Position numbers and translations under genes: made by a program. The notes below the pieces were generated by a model. It was not told where the DNA came from and made no database searches. It saw only the letters and a program-made list of their open reading frames with translations. A stretch of DNA of 64,000 nt from positions 1,736,001 to 1,800,000 of the forward strand of contig NZ_CP017157.1 in assembly GCF_001729485.1 (NCBI RefSeq), written 5' to 3'. Shown here piece by piece: positions 13,424 to 52,947 of this stretch. The DNA is from Streptomyces lydicus. Lineage in GTDB: Bacteria > Actinomycetota > Actinomycetes > Streptomycetales > Streptomycetaceae. The first letter of the stretch is position 1. The number at the start of each line of letters is the position of its first letter.

Positions 13424-14656
13424 TCAGCCGTAGTGGACCCGGAGTTCCTTCACCCCGTTGAGCCACGCCGAGCGCAGTCGCCGCGGAGCGCCGGCCAGGG
13501 AGATGTCGGGCATGGCGTCGGCGAGGGCGTTGAAGATCAGGTTGATTTCCAGGACCGCCAGGGATTTGCCGAGGCAGAAGTGGGGGCCGCCGCCCCCGAA
13601 ACCCAGATGCGGGTTGGGATCGCGGGTGATGTCGAAGCGTTCGGGACGGTCGAAGACCTCGGGGTCGTGGTTGGCCGACGAGTAGAAGATCCCGACCCGC
13701 TGGCCCTTCTTGATCTTCGCGCCGCCCAGTTCGGTGTCCTGGGTGGCGGTCCGCTGGAAGGAGACCACCGGCGTGGCCCAGCGGACGATCTCCTCGGCCG
13801 CCGTGGCAGGCCGCTCGCGCTTGTAGAGCTCCCACTGCTCGGGGTGGGTGAGGAAGGCGTGCATGCCGTGGGTGATGGCGTTGCGGGTCGTCTCGTTTCC
13901 GGCCACCGCCAACAGCAGTACGAAGAAGCCGAATTCGTCGGAGCCGAGGTTTCCCTCGTGCTCGGCCGCGACCAGCTGGCTGACGATGTCCTTGGCCGGG
14001 CACTCCTTGCGCGCCGCGGCCAGGTTCATCGCGTACGAGATCAGCTCCATCGCCGCGTTCGCGCCGACCTCTTCGGTGATGGCCAGTTCGGGATCGTCGT
14101 ACGCGACCATCTTGTTCGACCAGTCGAAGATGCGGGCCCGGTCGTCCTGCGGGATGCCGATGAGCTCGGCGATGGCCTGGAGGGGGAGTTCGCAGGCCAC
14201 GTCGGTGACGAAGTCCCCGGTGCCGCTCTCCCGCGCCGCCGCGACGATACGCGCCGCCCGCTCGCGCAGGGCCTCCTCCAGGGCGCGGATGGAGCGCGGG
14301 GTGAAGCCCCGCTGCACGATCTGGCGGACCCTGGTGTGTTCCGGCGGGTCCATGTTCAGCATGATCAGCTTCTGTACGTCGATCTGGTCCCGGGTCATGG
14401 ACGCGTTGAAGCGGATGATCGAGGTGTTCAGGTGCGCGGAGAAGACCTCCGGCCTGGTGGACACCTCCTTGACGTCCTGGTGGCGCGTGACGACCCAGTA
14501 GCCGTCGTCGTCGAAGCCGGCAATGCCGTGCGGCTGGGCGTTCCACCACACGGGCGCGGTCTGCCGCAGCTGCGCGAACTCGGGGAGCGGGACGCGGGAC
14601 TGGTAGACGTCGGGATCGGTGAAGTCGAACCCCTCGGGCAGCGCTGGGCATGGCAT
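13424..14656 (-). CDS. cyp125: CYP125-like cytochrome P450 (steroid C26-hydroxylase type)
   Basis: This 410-aa P450 has the I-helix motif AGNETTRNAITHGM (from about residue 253), the ExxR motif EIVR (289-292), and the haem loop FGGGGPHFCLGKSLA with Cys362. The AGNETTRN I-helix and the GGGGPHFC loop are close to the CYP125 family, which in mycobacteria oxidises the terminal methyl of the cholesterol side chain to the carboxylic acid. It is divergent from a FadA5-like thiolase gene, the same arrangement as Rv3545c/Rv3546 in M. tuberculosis. KstR-like sequences lie in the shared 247-bp promoter region. A [3Fe-4S] ferredoxin gene at 26602 could supply electrons. The actual substrate is inferred. 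Confidence 0.85.
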   Translation of the reverse strand: MPCPALPEGFDFTDPDVYQSRVPLPEFAQLRQTAPVWWNAQPHGIAGFDDDGYWVVTRHQDVKEVSTRPEVFSAHLNTSIIRFNASMTRDQIDVQKLIMLNMDPPEHTRVRQIVQRGFTPRSIRALEEALRERAARIVAAARESGTGDFVTDVACELPLQAIAELIGIPQDDRARIFDWSNKMVAYDDPELAITEEVGANAAMELISYAMNLAAARKECPAKDIVSQLVAAEHEGNLGSDEFGFFVLLLAVAGNETTRNAITHGMHAFLTHPEQWELYKRERPATAAEEIVRWATPVVSFQRTATQDTELGGAKIKKGQRVGIFYSSANHDPEVFDRPERFDITRDPNPHLGFGGGGPHFCLGKSLAVLEINLIFNALADAMPDISLAGAPRRLRSAWLNGVKELRVHYG

Positions 14657-14690
14657 CGGCGACTCCTGGTCCGTGGTTCGTCCGAGACTT

Positions 14691-14705
14691 CTGACGGGGC
14701 ATCAG
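14691..14705. promoter_or_regulatory. CTGAY-N5-RTCAG dyad before cyp125
   Basis: CTGACGGGGCATCAG, 34 bp upstream of the cyp125 ATG, is one base away from a perfect CTGAC-N5-GTCAG dyad. Similar sites occur at four other places in this window, three of them at KstR-boxed promoters. It is probably an operator for an unidentified regulator. Confidence 0.5.
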
Positions 14706-14724
14706 ATGGGGTCGCGGTGAAGGT

Positions 14725-14738
14725 AGTAACGCGTTCTG
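14725..14738. promoter_or_regulatory. Imperfect KstR-like box, cyp125 side
   Basis: AGTAACGCGTTCTG keeps the perfect core AACGCGTT of the KstR consensus TnnAACnnGTTnnA but lacks the outer T and A. It lies about 68 bp upstream of cyp125. Confidence 0.45.
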
Positions 14739-50754: not shown

Positions 50755-50852
50755 TCGTCGGGCACAGCTAGCCGTCGGGCACGGCTGGTCGCCGGACACG
50801 GCCGGCCGTCGTCGGGCACAACTGGTCATCGAGCACAGCTGGTCGTCGTGGG
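50737..50852 (+). repeat. Degenerate 17-bp tandem repeat overlapping the 3' end of the MaoC gene
   Basis: Six units of the type GTCGTCGAGCACAGCTA occur at 50737-50753, 50754-50770, 50771-50787, 50788-50804, 50805-50824 (20 bp, one extra GTC) and 50825-50841, followed by a partial unit to 50852. Unit 1 encodes the C-terminus VVEHS and stop of the MaoC protein, so the array appears to have grown from the gene end. Confidence 0.8.
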
Positions 50853-50863
50853 AGGAGCCGGGA

Positions 50864-51940
50864 ATGCGCGCAGCCGTACAGCACGAGACGGGTCAGGACA
50901 AGCTGGAGGTGCTCGACGACGTCGAGGCGGTGGGGTTCGGACCCGGCAAGGTCAGGATCCGGATCCGGGCGACCGGACTGTGCCACTCCGACCTCTCGGC
51001 GATGAACGGGGTGCTGCCGCAGCCGGCGCCCTTCGTCCCCGGGCACGAGGGCGCCGGAGAGGTCCTCGATGTCGGCGACGGCGTCACCGGCCTCAGCGCC
51101 GGCGACCGCGTCCTGATGTGCTGGCTGCCCGCCTGCGGCGACTGTCCGGCCTGCAAACGCGGCCAGACGCATCTGTGCCTGGCCGGATTCCTGAACGCCG
51201 GCACGCCCAACTTCAAGCGGCCCGGTGGCGACGTCTTCGGCTTCGCCGGCACCGGCACGTTCGCCGAGGAGGTCGTGGTCGCGGCCAACTGCGCCGTGCC
51301 GATCCCGGACGACGTCCCCTACGAGATCGCCGCGCTGATCGGCTGCGGCGTCACCACCGGCCTCGGCGCGGCCCTCAACACCGCCCGGGTGGCGGCCGCT
51401 TCCTCGGTGGCGGTGATCGGGTGCGGCGGCGTCGGTATCTCCACCATCCAGGGCGCCAGGGCCTGCGGCGCCGCCCAGATCGTGGCCGTCGACCCGGTGC
51501 CCGCCCGGCGGGAGGCCGCGCTGCGCTTCGGCGCCACCGAGGCCGTCGCGCCCGAGGAACTCGCCGACGCCAAGGCCCGGATCACCGCGGGGGAGGGCTT
51601 CGACTACGTCTTCGAGGTGGTCGGCAAGTCCGCCACCGCCCGCACCGCCTACGAGACGACCCGGCGCGGCGGCACGCTGTGCGTGGTCGGCGCGGGCGCC
51701 ATGGACGACACCTTCCAGGTGAACATGTTCGAGCTGTTCTTCGACGAGAAGCGGATCCTGCCGTCCCTGTACGGCGGCGGGGACGTCCTGCGCTCCTACG
51801 AGCGCGCCATCGCCCTGTGGCGGGCCGGCCGGATCGACCTCGAAGGGCTGATCACCCATCGCGTCCGGCTCGCCGAGATCAACGACGCGCTCGACCAGAT
51901 GCGGTCCGGCACCGCGCTGCGCACCTGCATAGAGATCTGA
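50864..51940 (+). CDS. Zinc-dependent alcohol dehydrogenase
   Basis: This 358-aa medium-chain dehydrogenase has catalytic zinc ligands in GLCHSDL (Cys) and GHEGAGEV (His, Glu), and structural zinc Cys residues in CGDCPACKRGQTHLC. The NAD-binding motif is VIGCGGVGIS. The product profile is NAD-dependent oxidation of an alcohol to an aldehyde or ketone. It resembles AdhX/class III-type bacterial enzymes; the substrate is unknown. ATG 50864 follows GGGAGGAG, directly after the tandem repeat. It lies in a row with the MaoC and SDR genes and is probably in the same KstR-controlled unit. Confidence 0.9.
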   Translation: MRAAVQHETGQDKLEVLDDVEAVGFGPGKVRIRIRATGLCHSDLSAMNGVLPQPAPFVPGHEGAGEVLDVGDGVTGLSAGDRVLMCWLPACGDCPACKRGQTHLCLAGFLNAGTPNFKRPGGDVFGFAGTGTFAEEVVVAANCAVPIPDDVPYEIAALIGCGVTTGLGAALNTARVAAASSVAVIGCGGVGISTIQGARACGAAQIVAVDPVPARREAALRFGATEAVAPEELADAKARITAGEGFDYVFEVVGKSATARTAYETTRRGGTLCVVGAGAMDDTFQVNMFELFFDEKRILPSLYGGGDVLRSYERAIALWRAGRIDLEGLITHRVRLAEINDALDQMRSGTALRTCIEI

Positions 51941-52005
51941 CCGGGGCGCGGCGGCCGGGCGGACCGGCCGGCCGGGCGCGCGGACACCGAGAGGACGGAA
52001 CAGAC

Positions 52006-52947
52006 ATGGCACAGCCGCTGGAGGGCCTGACCGCGATCGTCACCGGCGCCGGACGGGGCCTGGGCCGCGCCGAGGCCCTGGAACTCGCCCGGCTCGGCGC
52101 CCGCGTGGTGGTCAACGACTACGGCCGGCCGGGCCGCGACGGCTCGGGGGACGCCTCGGCGGCACCCGCCGAGGGGGTCGCCGCCGAGATCCGCGCGGCC
52201 GGCGGCGAGGCCGTCGCCCACCTCGGTGACGTGGCCGACCACGAACAGGCGCGGGCGCTGGTCCAGCTGGCGCTCGACACGTACGGCCGGCTCGACGTCC
52301 TGGTCAACAACGCCGGCATCCTGCGGGACCGGATGGTGTTCTCGATGACCGAGGAGGAGTGGGACACGGTCATCCGCGTCCACCTCAAAGGCCACTTCAA
52401 CACCACCCACTTCGCCGCAGCCCACTGGCGCGAGCGCGCCAAGGCGGCCGGCGGCCCGGTGCACGGCAGGATCATCAACACCTCCTCGGAGGCGTTCCTC
52501 GCGGGCTCCGCGGGCCAGCCCAACTACGCGGCGGCCAAGGGCGGCATCGTCGGCCTGACCACGTCCACGGCGCTGGCGCTGGCCAAGTACGGCGTGACCG
52601 CCAACGCGATCTGCCCGCGGGCCCGCACCCGGATGACCGAGGACGTCTTCGCCGGCTTCGCGGAACCGCAGGACGGCACGCTCGACCCGCTCGCGCCCGA
52701 GCATGTGGCGCCGCTCGTCGGCTACCTGGCCTCGCCGGCCGCGGCCGGCGTCAACGGCCAGCTGCTGGTCGTCCACGGCGGCATGGTGGCCGTCGCGGAA
52801 CGCCCGCGGATCGCCGCGAAGTTCGACACCGCCAAGGACGTGTTCAGCTTCGAGGAGCTGGACGCCCTGCTGACCCCGTACTACGCGCAGCGCCCGCCGA
52901 ACGAGACCTTCGCGGCGGCCGAGGTGCTCGGCCTCAAGCACGACTGA
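52006..52947 (+). CDS. SDR 3-hydroxyacyl-CoA dehydrogenase (Hsd4A-like)
   Basis: This 313-aa SDR is of the peroxisomal multifunctional enzyme type. The cofactor motif is TGAGRGLGRAEAL; VVVNDYG follows strand 2, with NNAGILRD, a catalytic Ser in IINTSSEA, and Tyr/Lys in NYAAAKGG. The length and the LVVHGGMVAVAERP C-terminus match (R)-3-hydroxyacyl-CoA dehydrogenases such as mycobacterial Hsd4A. It would oxidise the product of the MaoC hydratase and supply the ketoacyl-CoA to the thiolase. ATG 52006 follows GAGAGGACGG. A strong terminator follows. Confidence 0.87.
   Translation: MAQPLEGLTAIVTGAGRGLGRAEALELARLGARVVVNDYGRPGRDGSGDASAAPAEGVAAEIRAAGGEAVAHLGDVADHEQARALVQLALDTYGRLDVLVNNAGILRDRMVFSMTEEEWDTVIRVHLKGHFNTTHFAAAHWRERAKAAGGPVHGRIINTSSEAFLAGSAGQPNYAAAKGGIVGLTTSTALALAKYGVTANAICPRARTRMTEDVFAGFAEPQDGTLDPLAPEHVAPLVGYLASPAAAGVNGQLLVVHGGMVAVAERPRIAAKFDTAKDVFSFEELDALLTPYYAQRPPNETFAAAEVLGLKHD

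Follow-up and report, generated by a model that had tools for sequence, protein, structure and literature searches.

A predicted KstR-type sterol side-chain regulon in Streptomyces lydicus, with a probable methylmannose polysaccharide link and a candidate second operator

We describe a predicted regulon in a 64,000-nucleotide stretch of the one-contig, 8.2 Mb genome of Streptomyces lydicus (positions 1736001-1800000, hereafter the window, whose own numbering is used unless the genome is named). We consider it quite likely that a KstR-type TetR repressor, acting on boxes of the form TNNAACNNGTTNNA, governs the shortening of sterol side chains, the ring probably being left intact; binding, ligand, substrate and end product are deduced here from sequence comparison. 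An earlier reading of the same DNA, made from its letters only (the sequence-only reading), had proposed a KstR-like regulator with operators dispersed among steroid side-chain genes, and this is supported by box conservation, by unlinked boxes and by gene co-occurrence. The predicted regulon is wider than was then described: it includes unlinked boxes at ChsE4-ChsE5-type genes, a probable link to a methylmannose polysaccharide operon, and a second palindrome that may be a further operator. The regulator and its putative sites are as follows.

28579..29262, reverse strand: KstR-type TetR repressor (kstR), with TetR_N and TetR_C_20 over cut-off and KstR as PDB neighbours.
14725..14738, forward strand: weak second KstR-like box AGTAACGCGTTCTG in the cyp125/fadA5 gap, two mismatches.
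14833..14846, forward strand: KstR box TAGAACGCGTACTA with one mismatch, in the cyp125/fadA5 gap.
24939..24952, forward strand: exact KstR box between the metallo-beta-lactamase (MBL) hydrolase and aldehyde dehydrogenase (ALDH) genes.
29434..29447, forward strand: exact KstR box TGAAACTTGTTCTA between kstR, 171 bp away, and manT, which starts 54 bp downstream.
38020..38033, forward strand: exact KstR box before the gene for a fused FadE34-like acyl-CoA dehydrogenase.
49727..49740, forward strand: exact KstR box TAGAACGCGTTCTA, a perfect palindrome, before an operon for a MaoC hydratase, an alcohol dehydrogenase and a short-chain dehydrogenase.

The top five PDB sequences for the regulator score 115-117 bits; three carry the name KstR and the other two are TetR entries without a specific name (3mnl, 3bjb), whereas the next TetR proteins among the PDB sequences, Mce3R and KstR2, reach 45 and 27 bits. 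Its best NCBIfam model is that of KstR, NF033703, at 177.9 bits. The protein had been called KstR-like before, and its nearest solved relatives are indeed KstR, far from other TetR proteins, although it falls short of the curated KstR cut-off. Its identification as a KstR-type repressor, with the boxes as predicted operators, is supported.

Exact TNNAACNNGTTNNA boxes in the window start at 24939, 29434, 38020 and 49727 (mean in shuffled sequence 0.07; 0 of 100 shuffles reached four), and all four are intergenic by independent gene calls; controls throughout were shuffled sequence (100 shuffles) or the reversed motif. The sequence-only reading had listed the same four, placing one a base off, at 29435. 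Sites with one mismatch number 12 against 2.17 expected. Of the two imperfect sites also proposed, 14833 stands with one mismatch, whereas 14725, with two, is weak alone, yet a one-mismatch version of it occurs in 18 of 19 related gaps (19 cyp125/fadA5 gaps picked by hand among 145 genomes with FadA5). That boxes occupy promoter gaps is correct for the four exact ones, but the gene nearest to 29434 is one for a glycosyltransferase, which had been left unnamed. A scan of the whole genome, suggested with the first proposal as a check, gave 25 exact boxes versus 7 for the reversed control, and the density in the window exceeds that outside, which predicts 0.165 boxes here (Poisson P ~3e-5 for four). 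The looser motif TAGAACNNGTTCTA with two mismatches showed no genome-wide enrichment (60 versus 170 for the reversed control) and therefore only exact or near-exact promoter sites were used. Among the matches listed for the loose motif, 13 further near-sites were looked at: 11 fall within genes, and for the one at genome position 4435980 the nearest start is 257 bp away.

Elsewhere in the genome there are 21 exact sites, spread over 20 stretches, of which five are intergenic. Two of these precede acyl-CoA dehydrogenase genes, by 47 and 89 bp, at distances of ~1.7 Mb and ~1.3 Mb from the window. The enzyme at 3.095 Mb scores 435 bits against 4x28 chain A and 404 against 6wy8 chain B (next enzyme 144), and that at 46 kb scores 174 against 6wy8 chain A and 171 against 4x28 chain D (next 85). 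The pair thus matches partner chains of the same two PDB entries, and therefore the two unlinked boxes mark both halves of one steroid-type enzyme, 4x28 being, as we take it, ChsE4-ChsE5 of Mycobacterium tuberculosis. The other three intergenic boxes are at genome positions 1902507, 5007470 and 7518899; the first, TGCAACAAGTTGCA (in stretch L098), is 57 bp before a gene of old yellow enzyme/dienoyl-CoA-reductase type.

The boxes are conserved. Across the best 80 of 511 relatives of the regulator locus (1.43 Mb in total; all 80 are Streptomyces records, except one titled 'Actinobacteria bacterium') there are 132 exact boxes versus 1 for the reversed control, and the kstR/manT gap carries one in 80/80 loci (0 control loci). 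The chsE4 promoter has an exact box at 39-89 bp in 30/30 fetched loci (our own genome included; 46 genomes have the gene), and the chsE5 promoter in 22/30, or 27/30 within one mismatch (control 0 and 1). The FadE34 box is exact in seven of eight related loci where the gene was mapped, whilst the one-mismatch box of the 14833 kind recurs in 19/19 cyp125/fadA5 gaps. All of the predicted KstR-regulon genes cyp125, fadA5, chsE-type and fadE34 therefore have boxes, imperfect in the case of cyp125/fadA5.

Co-occurrence was counted in 200 Streptomyces genomes, with KstR scored as present at E < 1e-35 (our reading of the table) and FadA5 when over its curated cut-off; counts for ChsE4, ChsE5 and a CaiB-type gene come from the first 61 of them. 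KstR was found in 190/200 and FadA5 in 145/200, the latter in 144 of the 190 genomes with KstR versus one of the ten without (Fisher 4e-5). Of the 48 genomes with FadA5, 46 also have ChsE4, against 0/13 of those lacking FadA5 (Fisher 1.6e-11), and ChsE5 shows the same split (46/48 and 0/13). Being unlinked and yet inherited together in this manner, FadA5, ChsE4 and ChsE5 very probably belong to one pathway.

The enzymes encoded in the window are consistent with such a pathway, and the list given by the sequence-only reading (CYP125, FadA5, aldehyde dehydrogenase plus ferredoxin, FadE34-like, Ltp-like, MaoC, alcohol dehydrogenase and short-chain dehydrogenase) is matched by profile and PDB comparison.

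13424..14656, reverse strand: CYP125, steroid C26/C27 monooxygenase (PDB CYP125 535.8 bits versus CYP124 299).
14904..16073, forward strand: FadA5-type steroid 3-ketoacyl-CoA thiolase (NF005889 686 bits, cut-off 515; PDB FadA5 498 bits, next solved thiolase 252).
23783..24838, reverse strand: MBL-fold hydrolase of the Strvi_7410 family (NF053820 668 bits, cut-off 525).
25151..26602, forward strand: ALDH (Aldedh), presumed to oxidise the side-chain aldehyde; 428 bits against TIGR04284 (Rv0768), under its cut-off of 775.
26602..26835, forward strand: 4Fe-4S ferredoxin, a possible CYP125 partner (Fer4_13 over cut-off).
33729..34739, reverse strand: F420-dependent oxidoreductase, Rv3520c family (TIGR03559 437 bits, cut-off 335).
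38045..40255, forward strand: FadE34-like fused two-domain acyl-CoA dehydrogenase of 736 residues, with two acyl-CoA dehydrogenase halves.
40335..41528, forward strand: Ltp1/SCP2-thiolase type-1 (NF006102 618 bits, cut-off 436; PDB SCP2-thiolase type-1 506 bits).
49879..50754, forward strand: MaoC/MFE-2-type enoyl-CoA hydratase (profile and PDB matches).
50864..51940, forward strand: zinc alcohol dehydrogenase (profile matches).
52006..52947, forward strand: MFE-2-like short-chain dehydrogenase (NF005862 486 bits, cut-off 414; PDB match).

A DDE-type transposase gene lies at 43379-44146, downstream of the Ltp1 gene.

The sequence-only reading noted that no CoA ligase is present, which holds for the window but not for the genome, where a FadD19-type ligase scores 732.5 bits against NF005863 (cut-off 543), a model of the 'subfamily' kind that does not prove the substrate; we assume that FadD19 itself belongs to this family. 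The ligase gene faces a gene for an EchA19-like protein, which at 376.5 bits misses the NF051848 cut-off of 400 and passes that of the related PRK07799 (418 versus 316). A protein with two ChsH2-C-type OB domains follows, and then two thiolase-like proteins, over cut-off for PRK07937 and PRK08313, families that we take to be Ltp4- and Ltp3-like. The same gene order is presumably that of Rv3515c/Rv3516 and Rv3521-Rv3523 in M. tuberculosis. In other actinobacteria, such a FadD19/EchA19/DUF35/Ltp4/Ltp3-like set handles 24-branched sterols, such as ergosterol and sitosterol.

The absence of ring-cleavage genes, also noted before, was checked in the whole genome for KshA and HsaC, though not for KstD, HsaA, HsaB, HsaD or cholesterol oxidase: PF19298 (KshA) found no match at E 0.001, and the best match to HsaC reached 167.5 bits against a cut-off of 450. 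Since side-chain genes and a FadD19-type ligase are present and KshA was not found, the sequence suggests that the side chain is removed, probably with the ring kept and unopened. The same results can be read otherwise, namely that this regulator and these enzymes act on something other than steroids, for instance a branched isoprenoid acid or the side chain of a hopanoid, and that the steroid labels reflect homology only. The missing KshA_C match and the low HsaC score agree with this, as do the MFE-2-type hydratase and dehydrogenase and the SCP2-thiolase, which also suit 2-methyl-branched acids. The available text of PMC4810484 credits 55 of 57 Streptomyces with no steroid pathway, which favours a non-steroid substrate but also fits a module for the side chain only. 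Against it, CYP125, FadA5 and the ChsE4-type enzyme are each far closer to steroid enzymes than to the next family, and FadD19-, Ltp3- and Ltp4-like genes are present. Moreover, excerpts of PMC13170338 report that cyp125A13 is induced and that ergosterol and yeast sterols vanish when Streptomyces meets yeast, and CYP125A13 of Streptomyces peucetius, which shares with the window's enzyme its CYP125 family and its genus, hydroxylates cholesterol (PMC9728343, in whose available text the terms gene cluster, thiolase and regulator have 0 occurrences). We therefore regard a non-steroid substrate as unlikely and retain sterols, of which the 24-branched ones fit best because of the Ltp3/Ltp4-like pair.

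The most conserved box does not face a side-chain gene. It lies between kstR and an operon with the following genes.

29502..30857, forward strand: ManT-like GT4 mannosyltransferase (fold search with an AlphaFold model: 7qsg_A, ManT).
30921..31763, forward strand: S-adenosylmethionine (SAM) methyltransferase, perhaps a 3-O-methyltransferase (Methyltransf_11), between the ManT and MmpH genes.
31790..32842, forward strand: MmpH, methylmannose polysaccharide hydrolase (PDB 7qsj, MmpH, 399.7 bits, E 1e-118; next 25 bits).

The model of the ManT-like protein (mean pLDDT 71.8) has 7qsg_A as its top PDB fold at 50% identity and E 8e-36, the best other being MshA at 23%. MmpH and ManT are therefore both present, by sequence match and fold match respectively. 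The methyltransferase is the only such gene in the operon; its fold search returned general SAM methyltransferases and picked out no single function, and a SAM methyltransferase sits between ManT and MmpH in 20/20 loci from outside Streptomyces. The 29434 box is closer to the manT start (54 bp) than to kstR (171 bp), so that the polysaccharide operon, to judge by position, is probably the first target of this box. Over the 80 loci the distance from box to manT is 55 bp in 29, 54 bp in 15 and 33-34 bp in 20, whilst that to kstR varies from 96 to 428 bp. In 19 examined of the 46 genomes with KstR but without FadA5, the order kstR, manT, methyltransferase and the box are kept in 19/19, with MmpH seen in 18 (the stretch of L207 is too short); in two of them, L202 and L208, the box is 11 bases inside the projected manT start. 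Since box and arrangement persist without FadA5, the polysaccharide operon is the best-conserved candidate KstR target.

These data bear on a different account, in which the protein chiefly regulates the polysaccharide operon and senses fatty acyl-CoA, whether ordinary or branched, with the sterol genes as later recruits or a side branch. The 80/80 and 19/19 conservation of the manT box and its near-constant spacing speak for it, as does a CaiB-type CoA-transferase gene, presumably resembling alpha-methylacyl-CoA racemase, which in 24 of 30 loci is accompanied by a one-mismatch box no more than 350 bp away (20 at 47-78 bp, none exact, control 0). This gene passes no NCBIfam cut-off and, being carried by 58/61 genomes with or without the sterol module, is not specific to that module. 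In our genome (L133, 4765-5946; orthologues L275-L304) a near-site at genome position 5470307 lies 55 bp upstream of it. Outside Streptomyces the picture differs. MmpH occurs in 93 of 196 genomes of the class, 19 of them Streptomyces, and in 17 of 20 non-Streptomyces operon loci the stretch that was fetched lacks an exact box. The exceptions are L322, the one locus of 20 in which kstR faces manT with a box between them; L308, with boxes near manT and cyp125; and L323, with a box 1.7 kb before manT. This scarcity, together with a genome described below that retains the manT box without kstR, counts against a primary role in polysaccharide control, which we hold to be rather doubtful, and we continue to prefer sterol side-chain control by KstR.

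Several observations weigh against that preference. The regulator misses the NF033703 cut-off of 280 bits, as do all KstR-type proteins of the 200 Streptomyces (0/200 reach it). Of the exact sites beyond the window, 16 of 21 are intragenic, and among the five that are intergenic two stand in front of a PadR-like gene and one for a 440-residue protein, with no visible lipid link. Exact boxes are found in 0/19 cyp125/fadA5 gaps, where the constant one-mismatch box may mean weaker repression, and upstream of ALDH in just 16 of 55 related loci; a KstR box is missing from the FadD19/EchA19 gap, whose best site has two mismatches. Lastly, genome G068 keeps the sterol boxes without a strong KstR match, and G197 (locus L325), in which no KstR match is stronger than E 5e-12, retains an exact box 54 bp upstream of manT, in a neighbourhood with no kstR and no MBL/ALDH/ferredoxin stretch. 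In G197, either kstR was lost recently, or the sequence at manT is held by another protein or by the promoter itself.

That genome also allows that another TetR protein binds the boxes and that the KstR-like protein is a bystander, for which two further TetR genes in the window, at 27981-28565 and 42522-43097, would offer candidates. We think this very unlikely: the box is that of the mycobacterial KstR operator in the available text of PMC1995591, the most conserved copy lies between kstR and manT in 80/80 loci, and the TetR at 27981 is found in 0/80 loci at >=45% identity.

A second palindrome, CTGAY-N5-RTCAG, occurs at six sites in the window (0.13 in shuffled sequence; 0/100 shuffles reached six).

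14691..14705, forward strand: before cyp125; in 19/19 related cyp125/fadA5 gaps.
25114..25128, forward strand: before ALDH.
29197..29211, forward strand: within the 5' end of kstR.
34770..34784, forward strand: upstream of the F420 gene; kept in 54 of the 67 related loci that have this gene.
38003..38017, forward strand: beside the FadE34 KstR box; in seven of eight related loci.
49664..49678, forward strand: before the MaoC operon.

A further copy lies in the FadD19/EchA19 gap (L145, position 1412), the one that lacks a KstR box. Scanning the window with other spacers between CTGAY and RTCAG gave none at 2-8 and one at 9, and in the 80 loci a spacer of 5 occurs 134 times versus at most 8 for any other from 0 to 11, homologous sites being counted repeatedly. 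The background is nine palindromes in 441 kb of other stretches of the same genome, of which two are inside genes and two are at FadD19/EchA19 and nitronate-monooxygenase-type promoters. As this predicts ~1 site in the window, promoter conservation carries the claim more than the count does. When one mismatch is allowed, the loose form TGACNNNNNGTCA shows no enrichment in the window (17 versus 19.4). For the strict form, 14 recurrences at MmpH lie mostly within coding sequence, and none was found in any of the 19 kstR stretches from genomes that lack FadA5. The palindrome is thus a candidate second operator that would mark many sterol promoters. The TetR at 27981-28565 was considered as its reader and rejected, no relative at >=45% identity being carried by any of the 80 loci. 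Behind one copy, at genome positions 3107378-3110060 (L142, 7379-10061), lie nitronate-monooxygenase-like and acyl-CoA ligase genes.

The system resembles the KstR regulon of Mycobacterium and Rhodococcus in its TetR family regulator, its 14-bp palindrome, its cyp125/fadA5 pair with a box between, and its FadE34-, ChsE4-ChsE5-, FadD19-, EchA19- and Ltp-like genes. It differs in that KshA was not found, the regulon is dispersed along the chromosome, the gene facing kstR is manT and not fadE34, the cyp125/fadA5 boxes are imperfect and the FadD19 cluster has no box. In the available text of PMC1995591 the M. tuberculosis box is TAGAACN2GTTCTA, and a box, TGAAACGTGTTCTA, lies between cyp125 and fadA5 there too; the sequence-only reading had pointed out the likeness of the divergent arrangement. 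With the methylmannose cluster of nontuberculous mycobacteria (MeT1, MmpH, pMeT3, ManT) the operon shares adjoining ManT, MmpH and methyltransferase genes, and differs in its single methyltransferase gene and the KstR box in front. Acetylated methylmannose polysaccharide is reported from S. griseus in PMC9883506, in whose available text the words 'regulator' and 'operon' have zero occurrences. In the open-licence literature we found no paper with both 'methylmannose' and 'KstR', and, among the papers listed, none on a Streptomyces KstR regulon or on the second palindrome. PMC3388012, in the text available and with two Streptomyces in its set, places the rise of KstR and its sites in the ancestor shared by Mycobacterium and Rhodococcus, and it counts two to three KstR paralogues in more distant organisms. 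A KstR-type regulator in 190/200 Streptomyces, conserved boxes at the loci examined and FadA5 in 145/200 argue for a system older than that ancestor, an origin that the present data fit better.

Under the proposed mechanism, a KstR dimer without ligand would occupy the TNNAACNNGTTNNA boxes near its target promoters, and a sterol-derived acyl-CoA from side-chain oxidation would release it, as borrowed from mycobacterial KstR. The predicted targets would be CYP125, the alcohol and aldehyde dehydrogenases, the FadE34-like enzyme, the unlinked ChsE4-ChsE5-type pair, the MaoC hydratase, the MFE-2-like dehydrogenase, FadA5 and Ltp1, and the FadD19/EchA19/DUF35/Ltp4/Ltp3-like cluster would complete the pathway without a KstR box. 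More tentatively, and as a possibility that we would not yet call likely, KstR may join sterol side-chain catabolism to methylmannose polysaccharide synthesis, with the polymer carrying or buffering sterol- and fatty-acyl-CoA, and with a second regulator at CTGAY-N5-RTCAG adding a condition at sterol promoters. In Mycobacterium smegmatis, a strong KstR box is at MSMEG_6475, which the locus numbers place only a few genes away from MSMEG_6481-6484, the methylmannose genes; the available texts of PMC1995591 and PMC9883506 state no link between them.

In summary, these results would offer a genetic footing for the disappearance of yeast sterols reported from co-culture with Streptomyces, and point to strains that may yield side-chain-shortened steroids with an intact ring. 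They also provide a first candidate regulator for methylmannose polysaccharide. Taken together, they suggest that many Streptomyces are genetically equipped to use fungal and plant sterols as food.

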